Origin: Loripinus fragilis
Lineage: Eukaryota; Mollusca; Bivalvia; Lucinida; Lucinidae
Direction of reading: 5' to 3'
Assembly: GCA_964019695.1 (NCBI GenBank)
Contig: OZ026515.1
Span: 128,648,375 to 128,712,374, forward strand
Length of the DNA stretch: 64,000 bases
A model generated the notes under the pieces. It was not told the DNA's origin. It ran no database searches and saw only the letters and a program-made list of their open reading frames with translations. Made by a program: the position numbers and the translations under genes. This document shows, piece after piece, positions 24,168 through 63,890 of this stretch. The first letter of the stretch is position 1. Each line of letters begins with the position of its first letter.

Positions 24168-24500
24168 CTTACATGAGTGCTCATGTTTTATTGAATTTAT
24201 TAAACGAGTTGGGGAAAAGAGATAAAATGCGAGGCTTGCCGAGCATTTTATCTCTTTTTCGCAACGAGTTTAATAAATTCAATAATACAAGAACACGAAT
24301 GTTTGATTCTATTTATCATATGACAAATACTTTGAATATCATTTCTGGCGTAAAAACGTTATAAATTTGTCATTATGTGCGCAACGTTTTTATGGACGTC
24401 ATAACGTTTCCCGAAATTCGATAAACCACTAGTGGTTTACAGATTTTATTGCATGGCGTTATTTCACTCCCAGACGCGACGTCATATGATAAAGGCATGT
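24168..24500 (+). mobile_element. Fold-back element H1, copy 1
   Basis: Starts GAGGATCTTACATGAGTG. The long hairpin has arms TTGAATTTATTAAACGAG and AAAAGAGATAAAATGC, mirrored after the tip CGAGGCTTGCCGAG (24230-24243). A tail of about 190 bp contains AACCACTAGTGGTTT and ends AGACGCGACGTCATATGAT. Copies: 35573-35903 (minus), 40990-41335 (minus) and 50330-50665 (plus). It encodes no protein. The ends are not inverted repeats of each other, unlike a usual MITE. Confidence 0.8.
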
Positions 24501-25099
24501 CTCATCATGATTATATTATCCAATTTCATAAAACATGTTCAAAATATTCCTTGATTGCTATACATGCTCCCCGTTTGCACAAGATATGTTCTGAGAACAT
24601 TCAAATCATATAAACATGCGTATTTGAAAATAAGTTTTCTTATTCTGTGGGTACACCTCAATCAGACAGTTCTTTTGAGAACCAAAAACACAAATTTAAA
24701 AAGATGAATAAGATAATGCATTTACGCGAACTACTATTGCGTATCTTGCCTTTTATTAGATAAGAAGAAAGATCTGAGACTGACTAGTCTTGAAAAATAA
24801 ATTGACAGCATTGACCGCACACTTGATAACAAAGTAAGTGAGGGTATGACGCAGATGAAGAAAAAAATGTTATGGATAAAAACAATTGAAAAGTAGAAAC
24901 GAGGACAGAAGTAAGAGGCATTGGTAATCAGAAGGCAGGGACAGTAAGCTTGGTGGTTTTTAATCTACAAGAGGCAGAAAGTGCTAGCAGTTAAGTTAGA
25001 AAAAAAAGAATGTATTAATCAGCTTATTGACATATGCTCAGAAATAGGGGTTGGAGCAGAGGATATGAAATCTGTATTCAGACTTGGTATGCATTGTTT

Positions 25100-25310
25100 T
25101 ATGTTTTGCAATTATCTTTACGAGGAAAAGAGAGCTGGTTGCTTTGTTTTATTTTCTTTTGGATGTCTTGTTGCTGTAAAAGTCCTGTATCTCTTCCTCA
25201 TGGTGCCGTGGGTTGGCCTGCAGCTTGTGATTATGGGATTTCCTGATCATACTCACATTTTGGCAACAAAAACCCTTACAAAAATTTAGGTTTTTGAAGA
25301 TAATTGCATG
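25100..25310 (+). repeat. Family A repeat inserted in the LINE, plus orientation
   Basis: GAGAGCTGGTTGCTTTGTTT to TTTCCTGATCATACTCACAT matches the short form at 2080-2240. It interrupts the LINE's upstream region between FRLG and the following LRQTFLDNARNIGAKA-like sequence. Confidence 0.7.
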
Positions 25311-27117
25311 TAACAGGCAGTTAAGACAAACTTTTTTAGATAACGCCAGGAATATAGGTGCTAAAGCATCCAGATCGTTTGGGCGAGTGGTTATAATAGG
25401 ACGTAAATCTTACCTTTAGAGATCCTTATGTGAATAATGATGTGTGCGTGATAGTGTGATTTTAGATACAATATAGTGTTAACCCAAAAATCAATAAGGG
25501 CATGTCAATGGAATCAGTGAAGAAGTTGAAGAACCAACTCACAGCCATAAATTTAAAATTAAGCATGGTAACACACCAAATGGACCATAATTTATCTGTT
25601 CTAGAGACATTAGTTTGTCTTATCAAATACAGAGTAGCCAAAGAGACTCAGAAACGTTCACAACAATTTCTAGTACTGCAAATATATCTATTGTGCAACA
25701 TGCACGGTCCAAAAATGAATCATCAATAGTCTATACAAATGCAGACTCGTTATTGAATAAACAAATGCATTTAAACTACTAAAAGCAGCAAACAAACACG
25801 ACAGTGTAGTGATAACTAAGTCACTCCTAAAGATCAGAGTCAATTCGATTGTCAATGAAAGTGCGTTTCATATCAAAGGTTACAGAATGTCCAATACAAC
25901 ATTTAATCTTGAGGAAGGTCGAGGTATAATTATATATGTAAAGAAATATATAATTGATACAGCTTTGCAACTGCTATTAAAATAGTTAACATATTGAAGG
26001 TACTGGAATAACGTTACAACTAAAAAAACAGTGTCTGGCTTTTTCCTGGTAGCAGTAAACCGCACCCCAAACTGCCATGCGGATTTCTTGTCTAGTTGGA
26101 ACAGATATTAAACTACGACAAAAAAGGGCCTATTAAAGCAAGTCAAATAGTTATAATGTGATCACATTAAGTACCTACCACCCCTTGGAAAAGGCAAACC
26201 CTTGATAATACATTCAGCTTAATATTGTATACAAACAGATTCTAATCGCAAACCGAAAAACCAAACTTCTTCATGAATGATTATGAAAACATAAGATCTA
26301 ATCTTAAGGATACTAAAGGGAAGAAATAATGACAGGTGGATTTAATTTACATGAATCATGGAAAAGCTTTACAGATCTAATTAACAATGAAGTAAAGAAA
26401 AATATAGCGGTGCGTAAAGCTTTCATTAAACATTATATCCCATTATAAGCCTTAGATCATTTTAAAAAAAAAGACAATGGAAGAAATATAAGTATTGAAG
26501 CCACAAAGAAGTTAAACGAAAAGGCTAAAATGAAGCAAGTAAGGAGATATAAGCAGCAATAATGGGTTGTGAAAACCTACTATCTGCACAAAAATTCAAA
26601 TGCATTTTGGAATTATTTCCAGGTAAAATCTATAGTTAGAGGATCCTTGGGACATCTGGTTGATGCTAATGGAAAAAATGTGTCAGAATGCATCAAGAAA
26701 GCAACGGTATTAAATGAATTCGTTACAAGTGTCTTTGCTAGAAATAACACACAAAAACACCAAAAATGCCAGCAATTAATAGCAGGTGTTATATATACAA
26801 TATATAACTTTGAAATTACACTAAAATGGTAGGAAAATACATAAAACATCCAAGAGCCAGAAGCCAGGCAATGATCATACAAGACTACTCATAGAAACCC
26901 TCGATGAATTAAAGAATCCACTGAAAGAACTAATTTAGACATCATAACAAGAGGGGTCAATTTCGAACGATTGGAAACTTGCAATGGTAGTAGCATTACA
27001 CAAAAGGACCTAAAATATTCGCCAGAAAACTACAGGCCAATCAGTTTGACATATGTGGTATCAAACCTAATGGCAAAAGCTGGTTCAGGATAAATTGAAG
27101 TAAATTACTTAGTTACT

Positions 27118-27655
27118 TAACATCCAAAAAATAAATGAGCATGATAAAACCATATTACAAACATAATCTGCAGACCGACCCACGGTATTGCACGAAAGAG
27201 CCACAGAACACTATCAGTAACAGGAAGAGGAAGGATCACGGAACAAGACATCAGGAAGACAAATAAATTGAAGCAATTAGCTTCCTCTTCCTCAACAAGA
27301 TGATTACAAACTAGAAAGGACACTAAGTACTGCTTAAGAAGGACTTAACACTGATCCCCAAAAACAATGGTTGCAACAATTAACAATGGATCAACAACAA
27401 CAGAACCACCGCCTTAGAACAGACAGCAGCCTAGCAAGACACTGGGGGCTTAAATGTATTTCACTGGAGTCAAATCTTTGCCCTAGAATCAGTTGCTGTT
27501 AAATCACAACAAGTGTTTAGCTCGCATGAAGGTTACCTAACTTATGCAATACATCATCACAGAGAAACAATCAAATCAAATAAACACACTACGCATAATT
27601 AAACAAAGCAAAAGTCCATGACTCACAGATAGTCAGTCTGAACTTAACAAAACCA
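27118..27655 (-). repeat. Family A repeat inserted in the LINE, minus orientation
   Basis: Complement of the core (AATAAATGAGCATGATAAAA, GAAAGAGCCACAGAACAC), then ACTGGGGGCTTAAATGTATT and AGGTTGAGC at the right edge. The LINE reading breaks after NLMAKAG and resumes with EHGFRKG right after it, so the insertion came after the LINE. Confidence 0.75.
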
Positions 27656-29004
27656 AAGGTTGAGCATGGATTTAGAAAGGGTTACTCATGTGTATAGTGT
27701 GACCAGCTTAGAGAGACTGGGCGTGTCAGACAGAGCGCTGTCATACACTGTCAAATAAGACTAGTCTACAGTAAATCGGGTGTAATAGCCTATGTACGCT
27801 TTACTCGTGCAGTCAACCTAAGCAAAGACGACAAGGGTGACCAACTTTATACGTTAACATGCCTGGTGAGCGTTTATCTTTAGTATGCTGCTCGGTACCT
27901 GCTGCATTTCATTTTTTCGGGATAGATATGTTGTGAAAATTTTGGGGGAGGGTAGGTTTGCACTTTCTTCAAATTCTGTCTGTATGGCAAAACTGGTTTA
28001 AATTTTAAGCCGATACAGTAATAATAAATCATCAGCAAGAATTCAGCGGGACAAGGGTTAAGTATTTGGATCATGACAAAAGAGCATACAAACATGAGAT
28101 TTGGTCTTATCGCATATCGGCAAAAGCCTCTAATAATCGCTCATTCTGGCGTGTCCAGAGGGACTAGATGACTAAAGGGTGTTTGGAGTCTTCTTCAACT
28201 TGCATACTTTGTTTATGCGAGAAGGGAAAGCTCTGGCGAGGTGATGCATACATGGTCTCGTCGGAGCCTTCGCCACACGCTGATGAAATAAGAACCATCA
28301 ATTCGTGTACTGCCCCCTTTAAGTGTGATTAAAAATTTATTTCGGCGGACCATTATTTTCATTTTTTATTCATTATGATAATTTGAATAGTTTTAATTTC
28401 GATCATTGTAAGAGGGTATATATCTAGACTAGTCAGTCTGCTTGTTATCCAAATAATTCGAAATGCCTTTTTCTCACAATGAGGCTCAAAACTACCACAG
28501 GTATATACAGGTATACAAGTGTAAAGCGTTTCACAGATGAATAAATTCTTTATCTGTCTTACCAAATTTTATATGGAAATGTCCGCGGGTGTGTCTTTGC
28601 TAAGAACCGCCCAGTCTCTCTTAACTGGTCGAACTATAACCCAACTGATTGATGTTTGTGAAAAGTGGACAGAAACATTTGTTAACAAAAACAACATTGA
28701 TATAGTGTATTTGGACATGCAGAATGCCTTCGACTCTGTCCCCCTAGAAAATAATATAGCCACATTAAAAAGCTATGGAATTTAAAGGATGTAACTCATT
28801 TAGGTAGAAAAGTTTTAAAGGATAGGAAACAGAGGCTACATGTTGATGGACTATTGTCCAAAATTGTCGGACGTCACAAGTGGCGCTTTCAAGGTCAGCT
28901 TGTTCGGCCACTCCTTTGCTTAATATATACAAATAAACAACCCGGATGTGGTACATAGTTTTGTTAAGTTATTTGCTTTTTGCAGATGACACTAAACTGT
29001 TTAT

Positions 29005-29264
29005 AGACGGGCAAAAGAAACGTTACATGCAACATTTTCGATAAATTACTCTGACGGAAATAAAAAAAAAAATTGGAGACAGCAGTCAAATATTCATGTA
29101 TATTAGCCATCATGCTTGATAAACAAACATCGATAAAGTCAAGTAACCCTGATGCTTTACTCAAGGTTCTGGTCATGGTAAGCTCGTGCAGCTCATGTTT
29201 GTGAACCACATGTGTAGCCTGACAGAATTCAATTGTAGCGTTTCTTTTGCCCGTCAGTATACAT
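29005..29264. mobile_element. Small TIR element at the LINE's broken end
   Basis: GACGGGCAAAAGAAACGTTAC on the left and GTAGCGTTTCTTTTGCCCGTC on the right are inverted repeats with one mismatch, about 260 bp apart. TATA-like bases flank both sides but no clean duplication could be fixed. It follows directly on the LINE's FADD motif. Confidence 0.7.
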
Positions 29265-29424
29265 AAAGTATCCAGCGCGTGCGCTCATTCGGTCACATAC
29301 AATGTATTTACGCAATGCAGTATCTTATGTTGAGGACAATTAGTGTGTGTTAAAATTTGAATTGTGTCGAGACGACGATATTTTTTGCAGCATAACCCAG
29401 CTAGCGCACAGTATCGGGCCACCA

Positions 29425-29475
29425 AAGGTCTGCCAGCGAAACACCATTTAAATGGCATTTCGCTGGTGGGCTGAT
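29425..29475. repeat. M1 palindrome fragment
   Basis: CCAGCGAAACACCATTTAA and its mirror ATGGCATTTCGCTGG are the M1 central palindrome with a few changes. The M1 ends are not visible. Confidence 0.6.
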
Positions 29476-29499
29476 GGTGGCCAGCTTTTAGATGTTCAT

Positions 29500-30009: not shown

Positions 30010-30064
30010 GTATTTAGCAGACGAGACATTCAGACGACATTTGTTGTGATTGGCACTCTAAGGG
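30010..30064. mobile_element. Right-end fragment of the CCCTTA/TTAA MITE
   Basis: TAGCAGACGAGACATTCAGA, TTGTTGTGATTGGC and AAGGG followed by TTAA (30065-30068) match the right end of 4824-5068. The left half is missing. Confidence 0.65.
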
Positions 30065-30141
30065 TTAACCCTCCGTATATATATGGACTTGTCCATAGAG
30101 TTTGATTCAGTTAAGTTAGGATGGTCAATATAATACATTAA

Positions 30142-30507: not shown

Positions 30508-30569
30508 TTAAACGGTCACAGGTTATTATTTCAAGATATTACTGTAATTCTTTCTCTGAGATCGATTTT

Positions 30570-31134: not shown

Positions 31135-31159
31135 CTTTAACAATCGACGAACACGGATC

Positions 31160-33359: not shown

Positions 33360-33660
33360 ATTTTCGAACTCACGCAATACGTGAGTGTCTTTTGATATCA
33401 AATTTACCAGGCAAGGCTTTGAGAACGCTTGTTGAATCGCGAAGCCGAGCCTAGTAAAATTGATATCAAAAGACGCGAACCTGGTATTACAAGATATTAG
33501 CAATGGTGAAGTAATTATCGATTTTCATATCAATGCAACGTCAGTGACGCCATTGACGACTTCATACAAAACGTGCAACATCATGATGACCTGATAAATG
33601 CACATGGCGTGAGATAGACAACGTTTAACACAATGCAGTATGAGAGGTAACTGATAGTGA
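33360..33660 (+). mobile_element. Fold-back element H4, copy 1 (tip deleted)
   Basis: TTTTGATATCAAATTTACCA and GCAAGGCTTTGAGAACGCTT form the left arm and GGTAAATT-like/TTGATATCAAAAGACGCG the right arm, but the tip is reduced to TGAATCGCGAAGCCGAGC. The tail has ACGTCAGTGACGCCATTG, CATCATGATGACCTGATAAA and GGCGTGAGATAG. Compare 63604-63890. Confidence 0.65.
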
Positions 33661-35290: not shown

Positions 35291-35572
35291 GATTTTGCAA
35301 ACTTATCATGTACAACATTATTTCATGTATATATGACTATACGTGCAGTGTAATAAGTGTCTAGACGTCAAGGGAAATATTTCACCTGACGTGACTCAGT
35401 CATTTGTCTGTCTCATGGCAACCATAATTATAAAAAATGTGAAAAAGCGTTAATAGAAAACTACATGTTATTAAGCGAGCGCACCTTTTACCTCTGGCGA
35501 TTTCTTTAGACATTATTTGAGGCATTGTAAAACTCAATTATAACCATATATAGGCGGACTGTTTTCTTCATT

Positions 35573-35903
35573 TATCATATGACGTCGCGTCTGGGAGTGA
35601 AATAACGCCATGCAATAAAATTTGTAAACCACTATCAATTGTCAGGAAACGTTATGACGTCCATAACAACGTTGCGTACATTATGTCAAAGTTATAACGT
35701 TTTTACGGCAGAAATGAGATTTCAAAGTAATCTTAATGCCATATGATAAATAGAATCTAACATTCGTGCTCTTGTATTATTGAATTTATTAAACTCGTTG
35801 CGAAAAAAGAGATAAAATGCTCGGCAAGCCTCGCATTTTATCTCTTTTCCCAAACTCGTTTAATAAATTCAATAAAACATGAGCACTCATGTAAGATCCT
35901 CTA
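35573..35903 (-). mobile_element. Fold-back element H1, copy 2
   Basis: Reverse orientation: the tail (ATCATATGACGTCGCGTCTG) comes first, then the hairpin with tip CTCGGCAAGCCTCG (35820-35833), ending CACTCATGTAAGATCCTC. The whole element is complementary to 24168-24500. Confidence 0.8.
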
Positions 35904-36059
35904 TATATTCACCACAGCAGGAGCAAGCAGTTAATAGTATTTCACGTTTTCATTACTTTATCAACAACGTCCTCTTAAATTTACACCTTTAAATACTGCT
36001 GCAGTTTTATTGGGGGACGCCACAATGCCATTGGCATACCATCAAATAAACCATGCATG

Positions 36060-36237: not shown

Positions 36238-36444
36238 AATTCTTTTGATCTGGTTCCTCATAGTTCCTTTACTGGCAACAATCACTAGCTGTTCATTATG
36301 CCAGGGAGGACCTTTCTTAAAACTAATCATAAAACCAACTTCTAAACAAAGACCTTTACTCCTCGCTGGTATTGGCTGCGGTCACAGATGGAGACAGATA
36401 ATTTCGACGAGGAAGAGTACTAGAGAAGAATATAAGAATGCATC

Positions 36445-36850
36445 ATGAGTGTGAGGGTTGGATAGAAAAATTTATCACGAGGATCACCGATCGGCATCAC
36501 GAGGCTTGCCAAGTGATGACAAACGGTGATACCGTGCGAAGGATTTTTCTATCCCAACTTTACACAAATCATGGATTCTTTTTCATGCTCACCATTAAAT
36601 ACGGCATTTTTATGTTTGAAAATGCTCCCGGAAGTTCGTGAATAAGCTGAGATGCGACATAAATATGGACGTCACTCGTTTTTCGACGTGCCGCTGTTCA
36701 ATTTTTATCTTTCTCACGGGTGGTATGGAATTATCTCACATACCGATTGGTAAAAAAACATCGGAAATCCTGATCTAGTGTGCAAGAATGAATTCCTCGT
36801 GGAATCACTGTATGTCTGGAGCATAGGAAACATACAATATTGGGACTTAC
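36445..36850 (+). mobile_element. Fold-back element H2, copy 1
   Basis: Arms GGTTGGATAGAAAAAT and ATTTTTCTATCCCAACT enclose an inner stem ending in CATCAC/GTGATG around the tip CGAGGCTTGCCAAG (36500-36513). The tail includes GCTCACCATTAAATAC, GCTGAGATGCGACATAA, ATGGACGTCACTCG and ATCTCACATACCGATTGG. It pairs with 55240-55560, where the hairpin is inverted relative to the tail. No coding capacity recognised. Confidence 0.65.
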
Positions 36851-39264: not shown

Positions 39265-40985
39265 AACTGTTTTGTTATATGACTTTTAAATTATGAATGA
39301 AAATTCCCTACTTTCACTTTTGTTGCTGAAGTTATGTTCAACCTAAAGACTTTTTCACAAGTTTTAGCAACTGTTATTCAACTTTTTATGTAGTATTTTG
39401 TATTTTGAAATATATATAATTTTTCTGAACGTAGATTGTAAAAGGGGTACGTGCATTAAGGGGCTATTTTGGCCCCCTCTAGAAACAAAAACTGAAAGTT
39501 GCTTTTCACCAATTTCATCTTATTGGTTTATTAGAAGTATAGCCCTAATGTAAAATTCTTTAAAATTTTTGACCTCATAGGGGGGGGGGGGGCACGTAAC
39601 CCTTTAATCATAAAACGCTTTTTTGGATTTTGTTTATTAAAACAAAAAAAAACAAACAAAACAAAACAAACAGTACACTGTTGTTAATCTTTAAATTACC
39701 TGTTGGCAGGTGAAACAGCAAATCATGTCAATTTCATGCAGCCCATGCTAGTTTCACACTCATCATGCTATTTTTAGCTGTATAGAGGGTGATATTGTAG
39801 AAGTTACAAAAATATTAACTTCTGGAAACTATTTTAAGCTAATTTTCATCATGTATCACCTTCTAGGCCAGTTAAGACCAGTTTTTAGGTAGACATAGAC
39901 ATAACAAACAGACTGACTGCCAGTTGAATTAATGTCCGTGTATGACAAACTATAGAATGACATGTACAGGCAGTTAATATTCAGACATCAAGGCTAGAAT
40001 ATTGGCTGCCTACATCAAGCACATGTAATAATGAATTCTCTGCTACCCAACTGCTAGTGAACAGTGGAGGCTCTGATTTCGGTACTTTTGGCATCATTGA
40101 GAAGCGAGTGCTCAGGTCAGAGCCTACGCTGCTGGCATAGATAAAGCATGGATGTTTAAGTCTCAGACCAAAATTCAGACCTCTAGAATCGCTGGATATG
40201 CCAGTATTACCATTTATTTTGAGCATTTATGCTTATGCATAAACCCCTCAAATTCTAAAACAACAACACATGGATCAAATAATTTTCGTCAGTGGGGTCC
40301 AGGTCTAACTGTTCTGACAACATTTTTTTCTGTTTTTATTTTCTAGTCATCAACTTATTTTACAGATCGGACCCAAAGGCTTCTTGAGGGTGGGAGTGAC
40401 TAAACCAGTATTGTAACATTTCTTGATAATAGTCACTTGCTTTTTTTCTATAAAACCCAATAGCCACTTGTGATTTTTCAGGGGCTGGCGGTCCCCTGTT
40501 CCCTCTCTGGGTCCGCGTAGAAAAACGACAAAGAACTATGAACTAAAGGCACAGTACTCTTTTCTTAAAGAAAAACAAACAAGAAAATGTCACATTCATC
40601 GATAACAGATCAAACCATGGCACTGTCAGAAAGAGACAAAAATTGTAGACACCCACACGATAGCAAAACACAATTAAAGTAAAGCATCTCAGCATGATTA
40701 TTTCAAACCAGGAAGATCAATCAGAGCAACCAAACAAAAAGCAAAAACTCACACAATGACAGTATCAATAAGCATTTCTATACTGTATTAAGAAGCCACA
40801 TAACGGATCGAGAACAGTTCAAATGGGTTCTTGAGATTCTTTTACATTTAAAATAAACACTGGTCACCACTGTTTCTGCTGCACCAAGCTGATGCTTTAT
40901 AGTGGATATGCATCAGCTGTGAGTTGTTTATTCTGGTTATTGTCTGAGCTTGTCCAAGGAATGATTTTCTGTTCAATAGAAATAT
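39265..40985. other. Non-coding stretch, nothing recognised
   Basis: No gene supported. It contains a 12-G run near 39582, an A-rich (AAACAAAAC) tract near 39645, and an M1-end trace (CCTCTCTGGGTCCGCG, about 40502). Confidence 0.4.
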
Positions 40986-40989
40986 TGAG

Positions 40990-41335
40990 CATATGCGTCG
41001 CGCCTGGGAGTGAAATAACGCCATGCAATAAAATCGATAAACCACTAGTGGTTTACAGATTAAAGGGAAAGGTAATGACGCCCATAACAACGTTGCGTAC
41101 ATAATGACAAATTTATAAGGTTTTTACGGCAGAAATGAGATTTCAAAGTATTCTTTATGTCATACATGTATGATAAATATAATCTAACATTCGCGCTCTT
41201 ATATTTTTGAATTTATTTAACTCATTGCGAAAAAGAGATTAAATGATTGGCAAGCCTCGCATTGTATCTCTTTTTCCAACTCGTTTAATAAATTCGATAA
41301 ACTATGAACACTCATGTAAGATCCTCTATTTAATA
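40990..41335 (-). mobile_element. Fold-back element H1, copy 3
   Basis: Tail first (GCGTCGCGCCTGGGAGTGAA), then AACCACTAGTGGTTT, then the hairpin with an altered tip TTGGCAAGCCTCG (41247-41259), ending CACTCATGTAAGATCCTC. One stem half carries more substitutions than the other. Confidence 0.75.
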
Positions 41336-41364
41336 TATAGATGCATTACTGGTAAACTGGATAT

Positions 41365-41545
41365 ATCAAAAGACGTGAAGCTGGTATTCGATTTATCAGT
41401 TTACCCATTGATTCACTCTTCAAACAAGCGATTATGACGTAATTATCGTTGTTTCTGTCGATTCAGTGTCATTAGCGACGTCATTAAACTGTTATGTCAT
41501 CATAACCTGATAAAGGCACATGCCGTGAGATAGGCAACATTTAGC
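41365..41545 (+). repeat. Tail of fold-back element H4
   Basis: ATATCAAAAGACGTGAAGCT, TTTATCAGTTTACCCATTG, GTCATTAGCGACGTCATT and ACATGCCGTGAGATAGG match the tail at 63604-63890. The hairpin half is missing, and an H1 copy ends just upstream. Confidence 0.65.
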
Positions 41546-41624
41546 AGGTCAATGTGCAACAATGCAGTTTATATGACTGATAAAAAAGGATTTAACTCCC
41601 ATACGGTCAGGGGTACGCAAACCC

Positions 41625-43179: not shown

Positions 43180-44110
43180 AATAATTGAATATAGCTTTTA
43201 AGGATACAAAGAATTTTTACAGACAGTTTACGGTAAATGTTAACGGTAAATTATCTGCTCAACCCAGGAACATGGACTCGACCAAAGGTCAATACTGAGA
43301 GGTCACAAATGAATAATAGTTTTCATGTTATATCATTTTGTTTACTTATTCTTTTGAAGTGATCAAGAAAACGAAGGCGTTTCAACTGTTAATTTGAATT
43401 TATAACTAAATCACCATGAAATACTAGCTCTGATATGTCCTGTTGCAGAATAATTTTCAAACCAAAATTTCATTCAACGATTGACTCTTAAAGTGATTGA
43501 ACAGCTTTACGTTGTTTATGGTATCGATAGCCTTGTTTTAATAGCAAGGCAGTTAAAAATGGAGACACTAACATTTGAAAATATTCTCGCAAAACGAATA
43601 TGATGCGAAATATGTACACCATAAAGATGTAGATCGAGGACCATCTCCACCCAGAAAAGGGAAATTATCTATCTCAATATTAAAATAATCTCAAACCATG
43701 CCGTTTGCTATTGATAAGCCTTTATACAAAAATGGGTCAATGAATTTTTGCTAGAAGAAAATTTTATATGAAGATCTAGATATTCGTGATATTTTCTTCT
43801 TTTTAACATGCCCAGTATCTTATCTGTTGGTTTAGTGTCAATGTACTTTGCACAGACTGTCTCGTTAGCAGATAAGGCAGTTTATCAAAAGGAATCATTT
43901 TCCTCTGTGTATATCTTTCTCTAGATCAGGAAATTCATTAGTCGTTTGGAAAAGATATCAAATTATATTTAGCTCATTAGAAGCTTGAAAGACTAGAAAT
44001 TGACGAATCAAATTTGATATCAATGAAATGGTTGACATACAATGTATTACAGTAAACTCGAGCTCTCGCTACCTCAAAGTACATAGAATTGGAAAATATT
44101 TTACTCTAGA
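43180..44110. other. Non-coding stretch with a family A tail fragment
   Basis: Positions 43380-43500 (AAATCACCATGAAATA, CTGATATGTCCTGTTGCA) match the far end of family A at 16270-16380. TTGATATC sites near 44010 recall the H4 arms. No gene seen. Confidence 0.45.
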
Positions 44111-46304: not shown

Positions 46305-46639
46305 ATAAAAACTGCTGGTATTCTGTGTGCGCGCCGCATTTTATTGCTATAATAGCAAAGTAAAGTGGTAACCCAGGTACATTTTACCAATCACTTCACA
46401 TTTCACATATATATTACCATGTTATAGTACAGTGAGGATGCCTTTAATTGTTTATAGTTTAATGGCGACTTATTGTTTTAATTAAAGAAAACTGTTGACA
46501 CTAATAAATTTTCAGAACAGTTTATTAAAATAATTTCTCAAAATACCAAAATTGGTTATAACATTACTGTATTGCAACAGACTGCATTCTTGATGTCTTT
46601 CCTTTTTAATTGTACGTCGGCTAGTCAGACCTCAGACTC

Positions 46640-47797
<1,158 letters not shown>

Positions 47798-48823: not shown

Positions 48824-49053
48824 CCACCGGACGAGTGATTTTATATACGAAATCAAACATATATGTCCTTACTAAATGACAAAATTAACATCGAAGTCTG
48901 GTCATTTGCCACCGGACAAGACAATTTAATCTACATGTAAATCAACATTTAAAGTGTTAATCTACATAATGAACCTTAAGAGATATAATCTTATTATCTC
49001 ACACATTCACAAGAAATATAGGCCCAAGTCCCAAAGTTGGGCACCAAGACCCC
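48824..49053 (+). repeat. Second copy of the 230-bp direct repeat
   Basis: CCACCGGACGAGTGATTTTA to GTTGGGCACCAAGACCCC is identical by eye to 47221-47450. It contains the phrase GGTCATTTGCCACCGGAC, which also occurs just before it, giving an internal 90-bp echo. Confidence 0.9.
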
Positions 49054-49570: not shown

Positions 49571-50329
49571 CACAACACATATTGTTGGAAATCCTATGCC
49601 ACGGCTCAAATATTATACATATTGTTTCCATAAACACGTTTTTAAATAAGGCAAATATATATGCTCTGCAAATGATTAATACTTTTCTATCAGACCTAAA
49701 TTTTAAAGCAAAGTATTATATGTTTTCAATTGTAAGTCATAGGTAGTGATAACAGTACACTCAAAATTATTTTAACCCGTCTACACTTCCTAGAAAATTT
49801 ATCAAATATGTATGAGTTTTCTCTTAAAGTTAGTAAGTTTGAACAGGGAATACCTCCATTCACCAACTTTTCAATAATGGAAACCTCATTGTAATTGAAC
49901 AATAATAATATTGTTAAACCAATCATTGAATGCTTACAATGCATGTTATAGCTCTATTTTGCCGTTAGACTTTCTGGAAATATACCATATATAAAAAATG
50001 TGCAAAGTTGTCAAATATTAAATTAGACCTTAATAAAATTAAAATTATCACCAAATGATTTAAAGTCCATTCGCCTGAAATCGTTTCGAGATATCGAACG
50101 CTTATTGTATTTTTAAAAGCAAAATAATTAGGACAAAAAGTATCAGTAGAATTGCTTGACCTTGAATGGTGTATAAATGTACTCTGCTGTTTAATGGCTT
50201 TTATCACTGATAACTTTACCTTGATTTATTAATTAGCACTTAAATTATAAAATGTGTTCTATGATAAAGTATCAGCAAATAACACTAATGGAACAGGCCA
50301 CAAGATAATGGAACTCGTTGTATATATAG
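49571..50329. other. Non-coding stretch, nothing recognised
   Basis: AT-rich, no supported gene. Confidence 0.35.
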
Positions 50330-50665
50330 GATCTTACATTAGTGCTTATGTTTTATTGAATTTATTAAACGAGTAAAGAAAAAGAGATAAAATGCGAGGC
50401 TTGGCGAGTATTTCATCTCTTTTTCGCAACGAGTTTAATAAATTCAATAATACAAGAGCACCAATGTCAGATTCTCTTTATCATATGACATAAAGGTCAT
50501 TTTGAAATCTCATTTCTGACGTCAAAACGTTATAATTTTGTCATTATGTACGCAATGTTGTTATGAGCGTCATAACCTGGCCCAAGAATCTGTTAACCAC
50601 TAGTGGTTTATCGCTCTTAGTGTATGGCGTCATTTCACTCCCAGACGCGAAGTAATATGATAAAC
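50330..50665 (+). mobile_element. Fold-back element H1, copy 4
   Basis: GGATCTTACATTAGTGCTTA, the stem with tip CGAGGCTTGGCGAG (50395-50408), then TTTATCATATGACATAAAG and AACCACTAGTGGTTT, ending CACTCCCAGACGCGAAGTA. Same orientation as 24168-24500. Confidence 0.8.
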
Positions 50666-55235: not shown

Positions 55236-55239
55236 CTAA

Positions 55240-55560
55240 AAGAAAAATATCTCAGAAAAATCCGTCCCCTCGCGATCACCGTTTGTCATCACTCGGCAAG
55301 CCTTGTGATGCCAATCGATGATCAATCCTCGGAACCGATTTTTCTATCCCACCCTAAGACTCATGATAGTCTTTTTCTTGCTCACCACTAAACACCCAAT
55401 TTTATATTGGAAAACATGAAAAAGAAATCCAGAAAATCCTGAATACGCTGAGATGCGGCATGGTGACGTCATTTTAACATTACAACGACGTCAAGGATCT
55501 ACGTGTGGCCGACGTGCGGTTGCTCGTTTTTTATCTTTCCAAAGGGCTGGTACATGTATG
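55240..55560 (+). mobile_element. Fold-back element H2, copy 2, hairpin inverted
   Basis: The hairpin reads AGAAAAATCCG...GATCACCGTTTGTCATCA, tip CTCGGCAAGCCTTG (55292-55305), TGATGCCAATCGATG...GATTTTTCTATCCCACC. This is the complement of the hairpin at 36445-36562. The tail (GCTCACCACTAAACACCC, GCTGAGATGCGGCATGG, GACGTGCGGTTGCTCG) keeps the same direction as at 36445-36850. A third tail copy is at 56270-56410. Confidence 0.65.
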
Positions 55561-55579
55561 GGTATGTGAGATAAATAGA

Positions 55580-55740
55580 ATCCATCATTGGTGTTCAGTG
55601 GGGACAGAAAAATCCCAACCCGAGGGCCCACCGTTCCAGTGGGAAACGAGGCTTGCCGAGTTTCCGACTGAACGGTGGACCCGAGGGTTGGGATTTTTTT
55701 GGAACCACTGAACACCAATGATCGATTCTTTTTCTCATAT
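55580..55740. mobile_element. Fold-back element H3, about 62-bp arms
   Basis: ATCATTGGTGTTCAGTGG, AAAAATCCCAACCCGAGG and CCACCGTTCCAGTGGGAAAC form the left arm; the right arm mirrors them to CACTGAACACCAATGAT. The tip is CGAGGCTTGCCGAG (55647-55660). It lies in or next to the tail of H2 copy 2. Frames through the stem are by-products of the palindrome. Confidence 0.8.
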
Positions 55741-56269
55741 ACCACAACCATACGGTACAGTACTGTGTATAATTTGTTTGTGACGTCACTGAGATCGATG
55801 TTTACTGTCAATGACGAGCGCTGTACAAATCAACTTGAAATAGCGAATAAACAGCGCTTTAACGGTTATTTCATCAAATGGATTTACAAGAACTAGCTTA
55901 TCAGCCTCAGTAACTCGAGTAAGTAATTTTGATGAGGAAAATGTGTGTGTGTGGTGTGTTTTCACATCGTCTAGGCTCCCCGTCCCGGTGGATTCAGTCA
56001 TTCAATGTCCAACACAACAAGTTAAATATGATTATCGCAATGCACCCAGCATGTTCAGAGCATTGAATAAATGGTGTAAGTAAAATGCGCAGTTTTCCTT
56101 TTAATCCAAGTTGAAGGCCGACTTAAATCGCTGAAAATTCAACATAGAATTTTTTCCTGACTGACAACAAGTCAACTTTCGTTTTCGAAGGAATACAGTT
56201 ATGCGCCAAAAATGTTATCTCACATTAGCAACCAGCCGCGTGTGGCTTATCTCGTATTAGTTACGCTTA

Positions 56270-56410: not shown

Positions 56411-56414
56411 AAAC

Positions 56415-59400
56415 GTACATCTTGTGTTTTCCTTATGGTGCAACGGGTTAGTCTATTATATATGGTTGTGCCATTATCTGGTCATACACTAGTACTTTTT
56501 TGTATGGAAATTTCAGATATGTGGTTTGACTATGTCGCGTTTTGATCTATTTACTTGTTTTGTCACGTCGCATGGAGACTGTGGAAATCTTGAGTTTTTT
56601 GTCGCTTGAACTAGATATTGAAAATTAGAAGCCAAAACAAAAATAGAAGCTGCATCAATATGCAACTGCCATTGGGAGATATATTAAATATTGATGCAGT
56701 TTCTGAAATAATGGATTCTGACTGACAGTGTAAATTCTATTTTAGAATATATCTGACGACTGGAATGTGGATTATAACATCTCTTTTTTGGAAACATGCC
56801 TTTTTGTGTGTTTTAGTCATACCCAGCCTTAACCTATATAGGCCTTTTTGAGACATTAAAAAACAGTGTATGTGAAATACTTTTCAGGAGAAGGTGACAT
56901 TATATGTGTCTTCTATTGCCGGGCAACCACCAATTTAGGGTTTCGTTCCAATGAAACATCTCAAAAATATATAAAAGGCTGTCTGTCTTTTACTGTCATC
57001 CAGGTGCACGCCAAACTACACAAAAGTGTATTCATTTCTACATGCTCATTACACTGAGACGTAAAACAAGTAGTTGAGGAGTTTGTGGGGAAAATCGTTT
57101 ATGGTGAAAAACACTCATTCATTGAATGGACAGATATTGTAAGTGTAATTCCAATGTGTACCAACAACATATGTTACTGTAAAGGAGTAAATATATTTTA
57201 AAATATACATGTATCAAGAATCATGTCCCTCAGCTTTGCCTCTTGAAACGCCCCAATCTGCCTATCAGTATTAAAATACATGTCACTATAAAATTGTTTC
57301 TATTTAAATGATAGCTATACCACCAATTCGATTTCACGAATTTTGCTTAGCTCGTAGTTGCATGGCTGGATGTCTATTGGCCATTTAGTTCATCGAAGCA
57401 AACCCTCTGAGCAAGTAGGGGCGTTATGAAGAACATAAGGTATGTTGAAACCTCGTTTTAGGATTTTCCTTTTTTGTTCACAAAGCCAAAACTTTTGAAC
57501 ACGTTTTATAGTTGACTGAATATTTGTGTAGTATTTTCTATTTTGGGTAAAAGTACACGAGGAGATTTCATCTACTTATATTAATTCTGGTGTTTATTTT
57601 TTTCAGCGAAAGGAAACCGTTTGGGCGATTTTTGTAGAGGGTATTATAGGGATGTTTGTTTAAATCATTTTGAATTTTGACAAGTGGTTCAGTAGGAGGA
57701 GAGGTTTAGCTCTGGTGATGACTTTGTTCAGTAGAGCAGATTTATTCCTGGCATGTTGAAAAGGGACATTATACATGAAAGGATCGTAGATGTGATATTA
57801 TTTTAAATATGGACCAGTTGTTTAAAATGAGGCAATGTGGTTTCTAGAAAAAGTCTATGCACATCGCACGACACATTTCGGACTAAACACGATCAATTCC
57901 TATCCCTCGATCAGTTCGTAGTCAGAAGAACTTAAATTATAACATATACAACAACCTAAGAACTTATCCTACAAATGCCACCAAGAAATAAACACATACA
58001 CACACATACGCACACGCACGTACATGTTTGCAGGTAGATACGGCCGCGCTAAATGAAGCAATGCAAAAAACAACGTGGTTATTGTAGCAACATGTGGAGA
58101 TCCAGAACACTACGTCTGAGATGTTAGGGGGCGAAATGGGGTCTAGACAAGGTTGGAGTTTTTAAGTCATCGACGGATTTCACAGAGGGGGTCGAGAAGC
58201 AATGGAATCAAATTTGTTTCTCAAGGGGGATCCATACCAGAATATCTAAAGAAAGCTATAACTAAGTAAGTAAGTAAGTAATCTTTTATTATAGTGACTT
58301 GTGTAACATCGTAATACAAATAGGAATAAATATACATAATTAATACACCCGGCCGCATGGGCCTATAAGTCACTTCAAACTTTGTAATTTTTCTGTACAA
58401 AATGAGCGTTTTTAAAACGTATATCGAGCTTTAGTTGTGTCAAAAGTAGATCCATCACTGCCTTGTCCGTTATAGGACTAGTTTGACTCAACACCGCAGA
58501 GCCAGATCAGATCCACAGCGTGGTTTCTCGATCTGAGTCTACTGTGCTGGTCTCATAGACTTCACAACAAATCTTTGAGCAACAAACAGCATAGGTTCAT
58601 GCGCGACACTTAAATTGAAGCCCCGCGCATGGGCCTAGGCTGTTTCCGTGCTCTAGCCCATAGTAATGGCATTAATAAAGAAGCATAATGGAAATTAACC
58701 CCTACCATGCTGATCGCGGACATATCTCGCTTTGAAAACTGTGTAGATCCAGATCAGCTGGCTTCTGAGAGGTCAGCTGATCGGCATCTATACTGTCTTC
58801 AATTTGGCCTCCGCATCCACGGCAAAAGCCGGTTATGACATGATTGGTTCAAACAGTGACCTATATAAGATATATAGGTCACTGGTTCAAATTCGGGGAA
58901 TACGGCATACAGACTCAGCACGTCAATGGCTAAGAATGCAGTTCAAGCTTATATATTAAAGTAAGTTTGTATTAAGATTGATGTGGAGAGGGGAAAAAAC
59001 TTAAGGAACAAAGCTGTCTTTTGTGAAAGTGGGTCCAGTCTTATGAAACGCACAAATCCATCATGCACACAACGCTGATCAGCGTCGACGCAACGTCATG
59101 ACGCTGTGTTTACGCTGAACCAGCGCCGTGTGCCTGCTAGAGTTCATACGGTAAGGAAACTTAGAATCTGGTCCACTTTCGCCAGGCACATCTTAGTTAT
59201 ATAAAATAGTTTTTCTTTGCCTAAAGGACTGTGAAATGAATTTAGCTGTCTTTCTATACTCCTGAGTGACCAAGTATTTGAGTTGATCGTTTGGCGGTAA
59301 CGCATAGAAGTATTGGGTATTAACTAATGGTGATTTCCAGTGGGTCCGGACCACCTGCCTGGCTCTGGATCAGCTCAGGAGCAATACAACAGACCAATCA

Positions 59401-59650
59401 GCTTGATAACTGACTGTTGCTAAAGCTTTCAGATGGAGTGTTGACTAAGTACAGAATATTTGCATGGTTGTACATGTATGCAATAAGATAATAGCAAACG
59501 GTTACCCCTTCCTTGGTAAGTCCATAGAAACATGCTCGAAATTTTGGGCAGAATATAACTAGTTACCTTATGCGTTTATTTAAACTACTTTGTACACATT
59601 ATTGTATTCCTAACATACAATAGACGTGTCCGAGCAACGACCAGAATATC
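56415..59650. other. Long non-coding stretch, few features
   Basis: No gene supported; frames at 56276-56545 and 56866-57057 have no known domain. Small items: a CACACACATACGCACACGCAC tract near 58000, AAGTAAGTAAGTAAGTAA at 58264, a perfect hairpin CAGTGACCTATAT/ATATAGGTCACTG at 58854-58884 next to a B-box-like GGTTCAAATTCGGGG, and an M1-end trace (CCTGGCTCTGGATCAGC, about 59358). Confidence 0.45.
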
Positions 59651-59657
59651 ACTCAAA

Positions 59658-59716
59658 TATGGTGAACCAGAAAGGTCAAAAAGCACCGAAGTGCTTTTTG
59701 ACCGTTCTGGTACACA
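59658..59716. repeat. Hairpin with GGTCAAAAAGCAC arms
   Basis: GAACCAGAAAGGTCAAAAAG and CTTTTTGACCGTTCTGGT pair almost perfectly around CACCGAAGTG. Confidence 0.75.
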
Positions 59717-59986
59717 ATACTCAAAAGTAACCTGATGGTGTATAATTGACCGATGCAACAACGACTTAGCACGTGACATAGTCACTATGGCTGTTGATAC
59801 ACTGCGATAAGTGATATGGTCCTACGCAATCGAGTTTGATACTTATTGCATCGGCCTGCAGAACCTACGCATATGCACAGTCTTACCAGAACCTTCTCTG
59901 ATTACATACACAAATCATGAAAGTAGGTGTCTCAGACAAATTGTGTCTCTAGTCCCAATCAATAGCTATTGATGCAAGGTTACATA

Positions 59987-60201
59987 CTGTAAATTCGGAA
60001 ATTTTCGCGAGAATTTTATTTTCGCGAATAGCGTTCAAAGACACATTTGCGACCAAAACAATCGTAAACAGGGCATGATTTACCAATATCAGTAAACGAC
60101 AGAGTGATATCGCCACTTCGAGAGAGTTTGATTTTCACGAAACTTCGCATATGCGAAGTTTCGCGAAAATTAAACTCTCGCGAAAGTTTCTGAATTTACA
60201 G
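59987..60201. mobile_element. CTGTAAATTC MITE, complete, TA duplication
   Basis: Ends CTGTAAATTCGGAAATTTTC and GAAAGTTTCTGAATTTACAG are inverted repeats. TA lies on each side (59985-59986, 60202-60203), as in Tc1/mariner-type insertion. The right part has a nested hairpin (TTTCGCG, CATATG). 215 bp and non-coding. Second copy at 54080-54252. Confidence 0.85.
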
Positions 60202-60256
60202 TAGTGACTTTACGCATTAGTGACAAGTACAAACGCTGAAGTTCTTCTTTTTTTAA

Positions 60257-60623
60257 AGCTGCATAGTCTGTAACTTTTGATATTCTAATTTTAAAAAAAT
60301 GTTTTTATTTTTCAAGAACACAGTAAAAATACTCAAATTCAGGTAAACATTTTACCATTTTCGTTAATCTTAACAAGTTATCACTATTAAAACAACTGCA
60401 TTTATGTTAAAATTCAACGGTCTAGAATTATTGGAGGGACGCAAATAATTACCAACAAGAAAAAAAATACACCTATTCGATAAGATAATTCCTTTTTCCA
60501 TGCAGTTTTTAGCTGTACTGAACATTTTTATTGTGAAAACATAGCTGAATTCTACTTTTACAAATAATTTAAAAAGAAAATAAAATTTTTCGAAAAATGT
60601 TCATAGTTACAGAGTATACAGCT
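60257..60623. mobile_element. TTAA-flanked MITE (AGCTGCATAG type), complete copy
   Basis: TTAA at 60253-60256 and 60624-60627 flank inverted ends AGCTGCATAGTCTGTAAC and GTTACAGAGTATACAGCT. 367 bp, no coding region. The TTAA target suits piggyBac, although the ends lack the usual CCC. Copy 1 is at 30142-30507. Confidence 0.85.
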
Positions 60624-60629
60624 TTAAAG

Positions 60630-61426
60630 AATCAAAAGCAGTTTGCTAATCTTAATGCACGAAAATAAGACGTATTCTGTAATCCATAAATGTGCAATTG
60701 TCAATTTTTGCGCCGGGAATGCTAATTTCATCTGTTCTGATACAATTTAAAAATATTTGCACAGAAAATCAATTTCCTTTTCTGCAATCTAACATGTCTA
60801 AATGTCATGTTATGTAGAATTTATGTTCAGGGACAGGCAGCAGCAAAATGGCTTCAATGAACTACACATCAATACCTACGATATGTTCATGTACCTGTCG
60901 AGTGTATAGATTAATAATAACTTCGAAGCGGGCGTTTTGAAGATGCGGATGCGGGTAAACGTTCTAAAATTTCACTTTCCATTTTTTGTTCTCTAATTAA
61001 AAGCTGGTTACTAGGGCCCATAATTACAGTTAAGGAAGACTTAAGTTAAGTGTTGATTATTAGGATGCGAAAAATAACGTTTCGAACTTATTAAAATCAA
61101 AATAGTTTCACCTTTTCTGTAGATCACAATGCTAATTTGACCATAAGTACTGCATCGATCTTGGCAATTTATTAAAGGTTTTCTAGCATCTCATGTGTCA
61201 TATGATTTCTTTACTCTCTGTAATATATTGCCTCATCATCAAATCCTAGAAAAAAATCTAAATTAATTGATCGCAAGTTTATTAGAGAAAGATCCCTTTT
61301 TTGGTTTGTAATAAGGAGCACGCTTTTTCACTTCTGAACAACCAAAAGGATATTCCTTATAGTCATGTCAGAAAGTGTGTGACGCATTCCATTATTGTTT
61401 GGACAATATATTTATACAATGTAATA
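60630..61426. other. Non-coding stretch, nothing recognised
   Basis: No gene or repeat recognised. Confidence 0.35.
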
Positions 61427-62634
61427 TACGAGGGATGATCAAAACGTTCTCGGCCCCTTGTACTTCGGGATACCAGGGAATGAAAATTTGACGATTACTT
61501 TTCAATATAATCTCCATTCAAGGCAATACTTAGCCCATCTCTGTCCGAGCTTTCTTATCCCTTCAAAATAGAAGGCCTTTCCTGGTCCCCCAAATACTCG
61601 TTTACTGCCACTTTTACGCCTCCATTGCTTCCATAATGTGTACCACGAAGATGGATTTCAGTTTTGGGAACAGATAGAAGTCAGAAGGAGCCATATCAGG
61701 AGAATATTGGGGTGAAGAAGGATTTCAAATCCACATACAGTCACAGCAGTCATGGCAACTTGTGGCGTGTGGGCAGGGGCGTTGTCCTGCAAGATCAGAA
61801 CACCCTGAGTCAGTTTTCCATGCCTCTTTTTTGCGTAGCGCGTCAATTCGCCTGCATAATATGCACCATTTATCGTGCGACCTTACTCAAGATAATCATG
61901 ATCATCCCTAGACTATCCCAAAAGATTGAGGCCATCACCTTCCCTGCTGAATGAACCCTCGTACATTTATTAGGAGGGGTGTGCCAGGGTGCTTCCATTG
62001 TTTGCTCTGCATTTGTGACTCTGGGTCAAAGTAGTGAACCCATAAATCTCATCTTGGGTTACAACTCGCTTGATACAATCGACGGGATCATCTTCATAGC
62101 GAGACAGGACATACCTAGAAATATCGAGCCGAGTCCTTTTCTGATCATCGGTCAATATTCGTGGCACCCATTTTGCTGAAACCTTTGACATACCAAAGAT
62201 GTCGATAAGGGTTGACTGTACTGCCCCCAAAACGTATGCCCACTTCACTAGCTATGGTTCGCATCACACATGACCAGGGTGTACACGACATTTTCATCAG
62301 CGGTGGCATTTTGGGGCAGCCAGACCGTCCATCATCCTCAACGCTCTCTCTTTCCATCTTAAACTCTGCTGCCTATTTTTTCACTGTGCTATAAGGAGAC
62401 GCCTTCCCAATGGTTTCCATGAAGGTTTCATGAATTTCCTTGGGAGGCATTGCTGTCTTACAGAAGCATTTGATAACCGCTCTGATTTCAAGCTTCTCCA
62501 TTTTGCAAAAATGACCCCATGCTGTTCACACTCCCAATGTTCTTCAATTAGATCAAATGACCAACTTTCAAAGATTTAATTCAAAGATCGCACCGAAGCA
62601 TATCGGGCCGATAACTTTTTTATCACACCTGGTA
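61427..62634 (-). mobile_element. mariner transposon, nearly full length
   Basis: The terminal inverted repeats are TACGAGGGATGATCAAAACG (plus-strand left end) and, read inward from the right end, TACCAGGTGTGATAAAAAAG; both continue into TCGGCCC. Total length is about 1.2 kb, normal for mariner. TA occurs at the left edge. The two ends differ at about a quarter of sites, in keeping with an old copy. It contains one transposase pseudogene on the minus strand. Confidence 0.85.
61510..62501 (-). pseudogene. mariner transposase pseudogene (D,D34D)
   Basis: Would have cut and pasted the element between TA sites. It starts MEKLEIRAVIKCF (ATG at 62501) with the N-terminal helix-turn-helix region MPPKEIHETFM. 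KK-stop-AAEFK shows a Trp codon turned into TAG. SVEDDGRSG and WVPRILTDDQKRTRLDIS follow in another frame. The catalytic blocks remain visible: VTQDE (first Asp), LQDNAPAHT (second Asp) and YSPDMAPSD (third Asp), with 34 residues between the last two. This is the D,D34D signature of mariner. A frameshift falls between HPN and YSPD, and more occur near the C terminus (FYFEGIRKLGQRW). The length equals a normal transposase of about 345 residues, but with one stop and several frameshifts it cannot be active. Confidence 0.9.
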
Positions 62635-62689
62635 TTGCTCTAAATTGTATAAACAAATTGTGGGAATTGCAAATGGGTACTAGTTCAAT

Positions 62690-63060
62690 CGAAACTGCGT
62701 CGGCCAATTCCGTGGAATCAGACCTCGGATGTACATTGCAGGTCTACCTTTGATTACCTGACGCTGACGTTACATAACGTGATGCTGGCGTCACACAAAC
62801 CATGCCAATACAATACAAGTTCGATTGCAGCGAACCAAAAGGTAAAAACATTCCACAGGGTGCTATAAATGAAAATTAGGTTGTTGTTGTTTTTAATAAA
62901 ATATCGCTACAGCGATACTTTATTGAACAAAAACATAAACTCCATATATTCTGTTGACATAATAATGGATTTTAATATGCTACAGAACTAATTTTCTTTA
63001 CGCCAGATGCAGCCTTACATACAATCGAGGCTTGATTCCCGAATTGGGCCGAGATTTTCC
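62690..63060 (-). repeat. Dispersed repeat family F, compact copy
   Basis: Complement of the flanks of 51130-51900: GGAATCAGACCTCGGATGTA, GACGCTGACGTTACATAACG, AAGTTCGATTGCAGCGAA, AATAAAATATCGCTACAGCG and ATGCTACAGAACTAATTTTC. A segment of about 55 bp here (CAACAACAACCTAATTTTCA region) is missing from the other copy, which has the family B insertion instead. Confidence 0.75.
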
Positions 63061-63130
63061 GATTTGATACCGGTTATGCTCTTTTTGATGTAGATATTGT
63101 GAAAGAGACTTCATGTATTAAGCCAACAGT

Positions 63131-63190
63131 TTTTCAGTCATATGGGGATGGGTCTTCCTGGGTTGAACCAGTACTAAGCAAGTATTAATG
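63131..63190 (-). repeat. SINE-1 3' fragment
   Basis: GGGTCTTCCTGGGTTGAACC and AGTACTAAGCAAG are the complement of the SINE-1 body at about 4650-4670. The tRNA head is absent. Confidence 0.6.
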
Positions 63191-63304
63191 CTAATGCTAA
63201 TATGGCGTTTGACTCTATTTCAATCTATCCAGATGATATACTGAAATTGATAACCCTTAATTTGAAACTGAACATCAGTGATTTTATATATACATATTGA
63301 AGCG

Positions 63305-63324
63305 CCCCCCCCCCCCCCCCCCCC
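63305..63324. repeat. C20 homopolymer
   Basis: Twenty consecutive C residues; the length may be unreliable in sequencing. Confidence 0.9.
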
Positions 63325-63603
63325 ATTATTGGACTTGGCTTTGTCTACAATTAATGGCATATTGTCATCTTAAATTAACGATAGGCAAGATGATTTTAAT
63401 TTTAAAATATTTAATTTCCCATAATGGATGGAGATGTGCCTTGCTTTCCTTCTTGCGATACGTATACAATTAAATATGTATACAATTCGCAGCTTATCGT
63501 TTTGCAAGAGTATATTAAAATCTTAAATGACTTCAACAATACAAACCAATTTACTAATTATAAAATACCATAAACTTTATAAACGAAAAAAAGTATGTCC
63601 AAA

Positions 63604-63890
63604 TAAATTTTATCAAGTTTACCAGGCAAGGCTTTGAGAACGCTTGTTGACATTGCGAGGCTTGCCGAGCGATTCAACACGCGTTCTCAAAGCCGAGCCT
63701 GGTAAATTTGATATCAAAAGACGCGAACCTGGTATTCTATTTATCAGGTTACCCATTGTTGAACACTCTTCAAACTAGCGATTATGACGTATTTTTTTTA
63801 TTTTTGTGTTGATTCAGCGTCATTAGCGACGTCATTCAAAAAATGCAACGTCATCATGACCTGATAAAGGTAACATGCCGTGAGATAGGA
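63604..63890 (+). mobile_element. Fold-back element H4, best copy
   Basis: Left arm TTTACCAGGCAAGGCTTTGA and GAACGCTTGTTGA, tip CGAGGCTTGCCGAG (63656-63669), right arm TTCAACACGCGTTCTCAAAG and GCCTGGTAAA. The tail TTTGATATCAAAAGACGCGA, GCGTCATTAGCGACGTCATT and ATGCCGTGAGATAGG matches 33360-33660 and 41365-41545. No coding region. Confidence 0.75.

Follow-up and report, generated by a model that had tools for sequence, protein, structure and literature searches.

Short non-autonomous elements with a fixed hairpin tip in the genome of the bivalve Loripinus fragilis, and their possible likeness in mechanism to DIRS-type retrotransposons

In DIRS1-like retrotransposons, a left and a right internal complementary region overlap at the junction of a circle, and insertion leaves no target duplication; for the molluscan DIRS1 elements tabulated in PMC3266345, the left region measures 39 to 46 nt, and the right one 86 to 88 nt in four of five elements and 67 nt in the fifth. 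A different layout is that of the non-autonomous Helentrons, or HINEs, whose subterminal inverted repeats (subTIRs) of 12 to 15 bp include a 5' copy placed 2 to 4 nt from the end, and which carry a palindrome near the 3' end; according to PMC4067079 they insert in T-rich sites without changing the target. Here we report on a 64,000-nt stretch of the genome of the lucinid bivalve Loripinus fragilis (contig OZ026515.1 of assembly GCA_964019695.1, positions 128,648,375 to 128,712,374 of the forward strand; hereafter 'the window') and on related loci fetched from the rest of the genome. The window holds repeats of four families, H1 to H4, that fold into long hairpins closed by the same 14-mer, CGAGGCTTGCCGAG, hereafter the tip. 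The copies are non-autonomous mobile elements, apparently gene-less and about 340 to 360 bp in length, and we put at roughly 45% the probability that these elements work like DIRS-type elements.

Eight matches to the tip with at most two mismatches are present in the whole window, where 0.09 are expected, and none of 100 shuffles of the window reached this number. Every one of them caps a long imperfect palindrome, which is flanked on one side by a tail with GACGTC. The initial annotation, which had described a 14-mer shared by the hairpin tips of H1 to H4 and tails with GACGTC-like sites on one side only, is thus confirmed on both points for the window copies, except that the third H1 tip starts at 41246 and not at 41247. 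Across the 1.987-Gb genome the exact tip was counted 17,993 times (8965 + 9028), and its reversed control never. As to whether the tip might be as common outside hairpins as at their apex, we took 68 loci with 72 exact tips, the first ones listed from the start of contig C1, a sample that does not cover the genome evenly and that, being tip-based, favours intact 3' ends. Hairpin arms with a score of at least 8 were found at 68 of these 72 tips; among 195 random positions the mean score was 1.3 and the maximum 13, and the cut-off of 8 is therefore not absolute. The four tips failing the test (L046, L053, L061 and L068) belong to H2 or H4 copies that are decayed, armless or at an array position. 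A rough sorting assigned 36 of the 72 tips to H1, 17 to H4 and 12 to H2; the seven left over comprise one H3 (L014), one new family, H5 (L012), and copies that appear by eye to be decayed H1, H4 or H2. Four 13-mers taken from the tip had no published occurrence in the literature searched, and the tip with partial H1-like flanks had no match in viral contigs. A known RNA family was also considered, and the sole match above gathering score in the window is a tRNA at 4530.

The layout and ends of the elements were derived from the consensus of 36 H1, 17 H4 and 12 H2 copies, which when aligned show sharp ends. The order is a left end, the GACGTC-bearing tail, an internal segment that we call the splint, and the hairpin, which runs to the right end. 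H1 begins with the left end TTTATCATATGAC, followed by a tail of some 180 bp that carries the GACGTC sites; then come GTCATATGATAAATAGAATC, the 5' arm, the tip CTCGGCAAGCCTCG, and a 3' arm leading to the right end GATCCTCTAT; H4 and H2 follow the same plan with different sequence. Left ends start with TTTATC in H1 and H4, and with TTTCTTG in H2. H1, H4 and H2 alike have a splint whose left half, only about 13 nt long, is complementary to the left end and whose right half is complementary to the right end, so that the hairpin is the right half of the splint paired with the right terminus and closed by the fixed tip, with arms of roughly 75 to 87 nt that reach the end of the element. Since it is complementary to both ends, the splint can hold the two side by side. 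When the joined ends are compared with the splint, the match beats every random join (1000 per family) in H1, H4 and H2, and the fit in all three indicates that ends and splint have changed together. Taken as a single strand, the H1 consensus is almost entirely folded into a pair of hairpins that abut each other (z = -12.5 and -13.5). As for inverted terminal repeats, shuffled sequences did as well in 116 of 500 cases for H1, 386 of 500 for H4 and 0 of 500 for H2, which keeps a trace of them.

The families had been presented as unrelated, and this was not borne out. H1 aligns with H4 (z 13.6 to 14.6) and H2a with H3 (z 23), both with the tip masked or not; the H1-H3 alignment reaches z 5.7 to 6.5, and H2b aligns with H3 (z 11) and with H4 (z 5) only when the tip is masked. 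The H1-H2 and H3-H4 alignments, with z below 3, are not significant on their own. Together with H5 and a long relative, H6, described below, the families are one superfamily of mobile elements. In an alignment of the H1 to H6 hairpins, in which three families are represented by a consensus and three by a single or mixed copy, both-sided changes occur in at least one sequence at 51 of 66 predicted stem pairs, and all 14 tip positions are invariant, an invariance that is partly built in because the families were found by their tip. The idea of a conserved tip on changing stems therefore stands as far as the paired stem changes around a fixed tip are concerned, but the 14-mer is not a free-standing signal: it is part of a whole element. 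Within families, six window copies have 4 mismatches out of 84 in the tip and 57 out of 850 in the stem. The tip thus decays at about the pace of the stem, which is what dead copies should show, and the proposed comparison of tip and stem substitutions gives a divided answer: the tip is kept between families, but is not clearly better kept within them. The constraint on the tip acts on lineages that keep moving.

A second fixed feature is found in six of six families, 18 to 25 nt from the tip on either arm, where a CTCG of the 5' arm faces a CTCG of the 3' arm (CTTG in H4). Such facing motifs give rise to a tandem mispair, TC.TC when read on one strand and GA.GA on the opposite one. A tandem TC.TC mispair is present at the tip in all six families; mid-stem it is clean in four (H1, H3, H5 and H6), replaced by a 2x3 loop in H2, and modified by the CTTG of the 3' arm in H4, and a third such mispair lies near the hairpin base in H1, H2 and H4. 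The tandem GA mispairs first noticed at the tip are therefore a real feature, repeated also mid-stem. Both tandem sheared GA pairs and CUUG loops are known for their stability. Over the inner hairpin, the CGAG-bearing strand is the more stable one in six of six families with both DNA and RNA parameters, although with DNA parameters the gap stays under 1 kcal/mol in four families; over the whole hairpin, H5 gives the opposite result. What is recognised is probably the whole hairpin code, that is, apex, placed mispairs and splint, rather than the 14-mer alone. A conserved apex on changing stems is also a property of the apex-nicked origins of Rep-encoding single-stranded DNA viruses; however, the tip elements have no Rep gene, have a different apex and are genomic repeats, so that the parallel is an analogy only. 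Work combining sheared tandem GA, hairpins and transposition was not found in the literature searched.

Evidence of mobility comes from the insertion sites. We compared 55 insertions with the sequence fetched for the analysis, and two gave clean empty versions: L036, which sits in a dispersed repeat also found at positions 4820 to 5073 of the window, and L026, which sits inside another H1. Neither empty site shows a target duplication, one or two bases being unplaceable at L036, and a fixed-length or consistent duplication was not found in the flank pairs of 29 H1, 15 H4 and 6 H2 copies. These empty sites largely refute the view that the repeats are host hairpin-RNA genes, made of a promoter tail and a hairpin, and not mobile. 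The one-sided GACGTC sites, as well as the 18 to 25 nt that separate the two tandem mispairs along each arm in six families, would suit such genes, but a number of 17,993 tips, ends that are sharp while the flanks change from copy to copy, and insertions into other repeats with empty copies do not, and we regard this explanation as very improbable. Fold-back or MITE-type elements, moved by a cut-and-paste (DDE) transposase, would also be short, non-coding, palindromic and present in thousands of copies. Moreover, the flanks of H1 match over 2 nt in 10 of 29 pairs, for 4.4 expected, and over 3 nt in 6, for 1.9 expected, at the best of many offsets. However, no longer or consistent duplication exists in the flank pairs of the three families, the two empty sites have none, and the outer ends of H1 and H4 are not inverted repeats. 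We consider this hypothesis improbable.

The sites chosen by the elements are not random. We considered 65 right and 59 left flanks of H1 and H4, after dropping near-duplicates and array positions; some of these loci had been chosen for their arrays or rare tips. On the left, the motif comprises A at -8 (47 of 59), A at -7 (35 of 59), T at -5 (33 of 59) and T at -1 (42 of 59); on the right, T at +2 (53 of 65) and A at +3 (50 of 65) are followed by T at +4 and A at +6. The A at -8 mirrors the T at +2 across an 8-nt spacer, which makes the site roughly symmetric. A tyrosine recombinase would be expected to insert at a preferred site and to leave no duplication, given the description of such sites in PMC3212892, and the insertion data are thus consistent with the suggestion that a recombinase acts on the element.

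The same data could be explained by a recombinase-only DNA transposon of Crypton type, of which the tip elements would be derivatives that leave the genome as circles and insert again without passing through RNA. Recombinase sites are described in PMC3212892 as inverted repeats around a spacer of 6 to 8 bp, to which the roughly symmetric site with its 8-nt spacer and the lack of duplication at the two empty sites can be compared, and non-autonomous Cryptons are reported there to outnumber the autonomous ones. In the present genome, a recombinase match in a 348-aa open frame occurs with the same score at at least 10 places, C1:23325049 and C1:88595973 among them, and is a candidate partner of the tip elements. 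The feature in common is the recombinase-like site; animal Cryptons are reported to have no terminal repeats, and what PMC3212892 says of them mentions neither splint nor hairpin, whereas here the splint follows both ends. A Crypton-like origin is therefore considered rather unlikely.

Some copies are extended by arrays that bear on how the tip is used. The right end CTCTAT followed within 0 to 6 nt by an exact tip forms 710 junctions genome-wide, for 0 in the control; this is not a count of events, because most arrays may descend from a few of them. The gap is 2 nt in 99 of 100 listed junctions and 0 nt in the remaining one, and reads AT in 91. At six array loci (L073 to L078) the element is an H4, with an intact left side in four cases, and the repeated unit is the 3' arm starting at the tip, arranged head to tail about every 90 bp. 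A further array is found in L053, and the H2 copy of L068 has the same joint between right end and tip. The linker dinucleotide varies between and within arrays, the units being otherwise nearly alike. It is not a copy of the present right flank, from which it differs in L073 to L077, agreeing only in L078. Given the near-constant joint of the arrays, a defined reaction joins the start of the tip to the right end. Such arrays would be produced if RNAs were cut at the tip and copied with end-to-end template jumping, or if the tip were nicked.

Rolling-circle replication offers another account of this joint, which could be a rolling-circle junction. The elements would then be HINEs, moved by a Rep/helicase protein, with their subTIRs at the left end and in the left splint half, and with the hairpin as a hugely enlarged 3' palindrome serving as terminator. 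Indeed TTTATCATATGAC and GTCATATGATAAA, and their equivalents in the other families, are 12- to 15-bp repeats near the 5' end and before the 3' palindrome, T is found at -1 in 42 of 59 copies, and the genome has 120 matches to Helitron_like_N. HINEs have been found in oyster (PMC7492417), and HINE, DINE-1 and Cg_HINE, elements known in bivalves, share with ours a 5' subTIR, a core, a 3' subTIR, a 3' palindrome and the absence of target change. However, the HINE palindromes of mite described in PMC4067079 measure 5 to 10 bp and lie 8 to 35 bp from the end, whereas here the arms, of about 75 to 87 nt, extend as far as the end and border directly on the subTIR. The tip elements further differ by a two-sided target motif, extending 8 nt upstream, and no microsatellite was noticed in their consensus. 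Among the many Helitron groups of the genome, two were read downstream and contained no tip, one of them ending in hairpin-CTAG|T. We consider a HINE origin unlikely, if somewhat less so than a Crypton-like one. A canonical Helitron was likewise rejected as partner, since hairpin-CTAG|T forms the end of L071 and L072 and no tip occurs in the 5 kb examined in L069 to L072. Two large palindromes lie downstream of the Helitron open frame of L069 (1006-1061 and 1216-1278), with alike apices, GGCTACTG and GGTTACTG; these may be a further example of a tip that is kept while stems change.

We favour a mechanism of DIRS type. The splint would bring both ends together, so that a copy of the element, probably reverse-transcribed from RNA, could be closed into a circle via the splint, and the circle would be inserted in the genome by the tyrosine recombinase of a DIRS-type retrotransposon. 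A handle for recognition or priming by the partner's enzyme may be provided by the fixed tip together with the tandem GA mispairs, which are strand-specific (predicted to be stable on the CGAG-bearing strand and disruptive on the other); the tip may also be a point of cleavage or template jump, as suggested by the arrays of tip, 3' arm and 2 nt. We infer the link to the DIRS order from the layout and the target site, and we claim likeness in mechanism, not membership, because H1 and H4 have no inverted terminal repeats, a defining feature of DIRS1.

The likenesses to DIRS1-like elements are several: internal complementary regions match both termini and meet at one junction, the right-end palindrome has arms of about 80 nt, insertion is without duplication, and the elements start with TTT and end with TAT, a pair seen in XtDIRS2 (PMC3266345). 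Right ends of the same kind were found in three DIRS elements of the genome (L079 to L081), as uninterrupted helices of 81 to 82 bp with a loop of 101 to 118 nt; in the tip elements, by contrast, there are no genes, the loop is reduced to the 14-nt tip and the stem is imperfect, with fixed mispairs. Tentatively, the tip elements may be parasites of tyrosine-recombinase retrotransposons, as SINEs are of LINEs, having a minimal splint for circularisation, a code of hairpin apex and GA mispairs, a stem free to change in sequence, and a cleavage or jump at the apex that builds the 3'-arm arrays. If this holds, they are mobile DNA recognised by the shape of a hairpin (apex and placed mispairs) and not by the sequence of its stem, their covarying stems are a natural series for finding what the enzyme reads, and an order of retrotransposons gains a non-autonomous partner. 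No non-autonomous DIRS element was found in the literature searched, although reports elsewhere are possible.

Several observations weigh against a DIRS-type mechanism. The left complementary region is about 13 nt long, compared with the 39 to 46 nt of molluscan DIRS1 elements (PMC3266345), and, unlike DIRS1, H1 and H4 have no inverted terminal repeats, with a trace in H2. The left half of the site symmetry is weak, T at -9, the mirror of the A at +3, being found in 31 of 59 flanks (p = 2e-3). The right flanks of DIRS elements have T at +2 in 6 of 8 cases and A at +3 in 4 of 8, but with a boundary that we chose ourselves these are too few to equate the two sites. In addition, the tip is absent, at up to 3 mismatches, from five DIRS loci (L079 to L083; about 3.4 kb downstream of a Dam match). 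The genome contains DIRS elements, with 37 Dam and 143 tyrosine recombinase (YR) matches, and the initial annotation had proposed to look for an autonomous relative beside a recombinase or Rep/HUH gene; a partial search did not reveal one. For neighbouring genes it covered 78 of the 17,993 tips, those of the rare type (Y..R closed), and found none of them at a distance of 20 kb or less from the matches entered, which comprised 128 YR, 35 Dam and 112 Helitron matches. Six rare tips were fetched: L084 and L088 are H4 variants, and L085, L086, L087 and L091 are the long relative H6. The stretch of H6 that was read has no recognisable coding sequence, its longest open frame being of 188 aa, and this too counts against the proposed mechanism. 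A tblastn search of H6 with the Helitron, DIRS and reverse-transcriptase frames of other loci gave short weak matches only. Several kb are shared among the H6 copies, which end in the same type of hairpin; their left end was not reached.

The copies present in the window are given in Table 1.

Table 1. Tip elements of the window (positions in the 64,000-nt stretch)
Feature	Positions	Strand	Remarks
H1 copy a	24159..24493	-	Tip 24230-24243; hairpin about 24159-24320; tail 24321-24493
H1 copy b	35571..35904	+	Tip 35820-35833
H1 copy c	40985..41329	+	Tip variant 41246-41259, 2 mismatches
H1 copy d	50324..50664	-	Tip variant 50395-50408, 1 mismatch
H2 copy a	36427..36676	-	Span is the part matching the H2 consensus; tip variant 36500-36513
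H2-type copy b (H2b)	55254..55575	-	Tip variant 55292-55305; hairpin flipped relative to tail
H3	55566..55860	-	Hairpin about 55566-55745; tip 55647-55660; tail to about 55860, outer limit not fixed
H4	63611..63945	-	Tip 63656-63669
H4, partial	41349..41583	-	Tail and outer arm only; adjoins H1 copy c
H4, collapsed hairpin	33378..33656	-	Without tip

The left end of H2b, TTTATCTCACATACC at 55561-55575, abuts the right end of H3, the outermost bases of the H3 hairpin overlapping it, and the same pairing of H3 right end and H2b left end is present in L014. In H2b the whole hairpin, tip included, is inverted with respect to the tail, an expected outcome of recombination between palindrome arms. 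The stem collapses of L068 and of the tipless H4 copy resemble deletions between the CTCGG repeats of mid-stem and tip.

Other features of the window include an intronless (single-exon) gene at 20506-21849 for a rhodopsin-type G protein-coupled receptor, like the molluscan receptors for prolactin-releasing peptide and neuropeptide Y; its best named matches are in Potamilus (73% identity), Dreissena (68%) and Ruditapes (67%), and also in Mya and Mactra. Two direct repeats of 230 bp, shown as 100% alike and 1.6 kb apart (47221-47450 and 48824-49053), resemble a young long terminal repeat or TRIM element, and a satellite-like array with units of about 191 bp occupies 13338-14783. Finally, reverse-transcriptase-like fragments, comparable to a frame of L020 that we take to be Penelope-like, are found at 16101-16419, 43344-43732, 46458-46631 and 63329-63567, and close relatives of the L020 frame are also present in the tip loci L049, L053 and L065.

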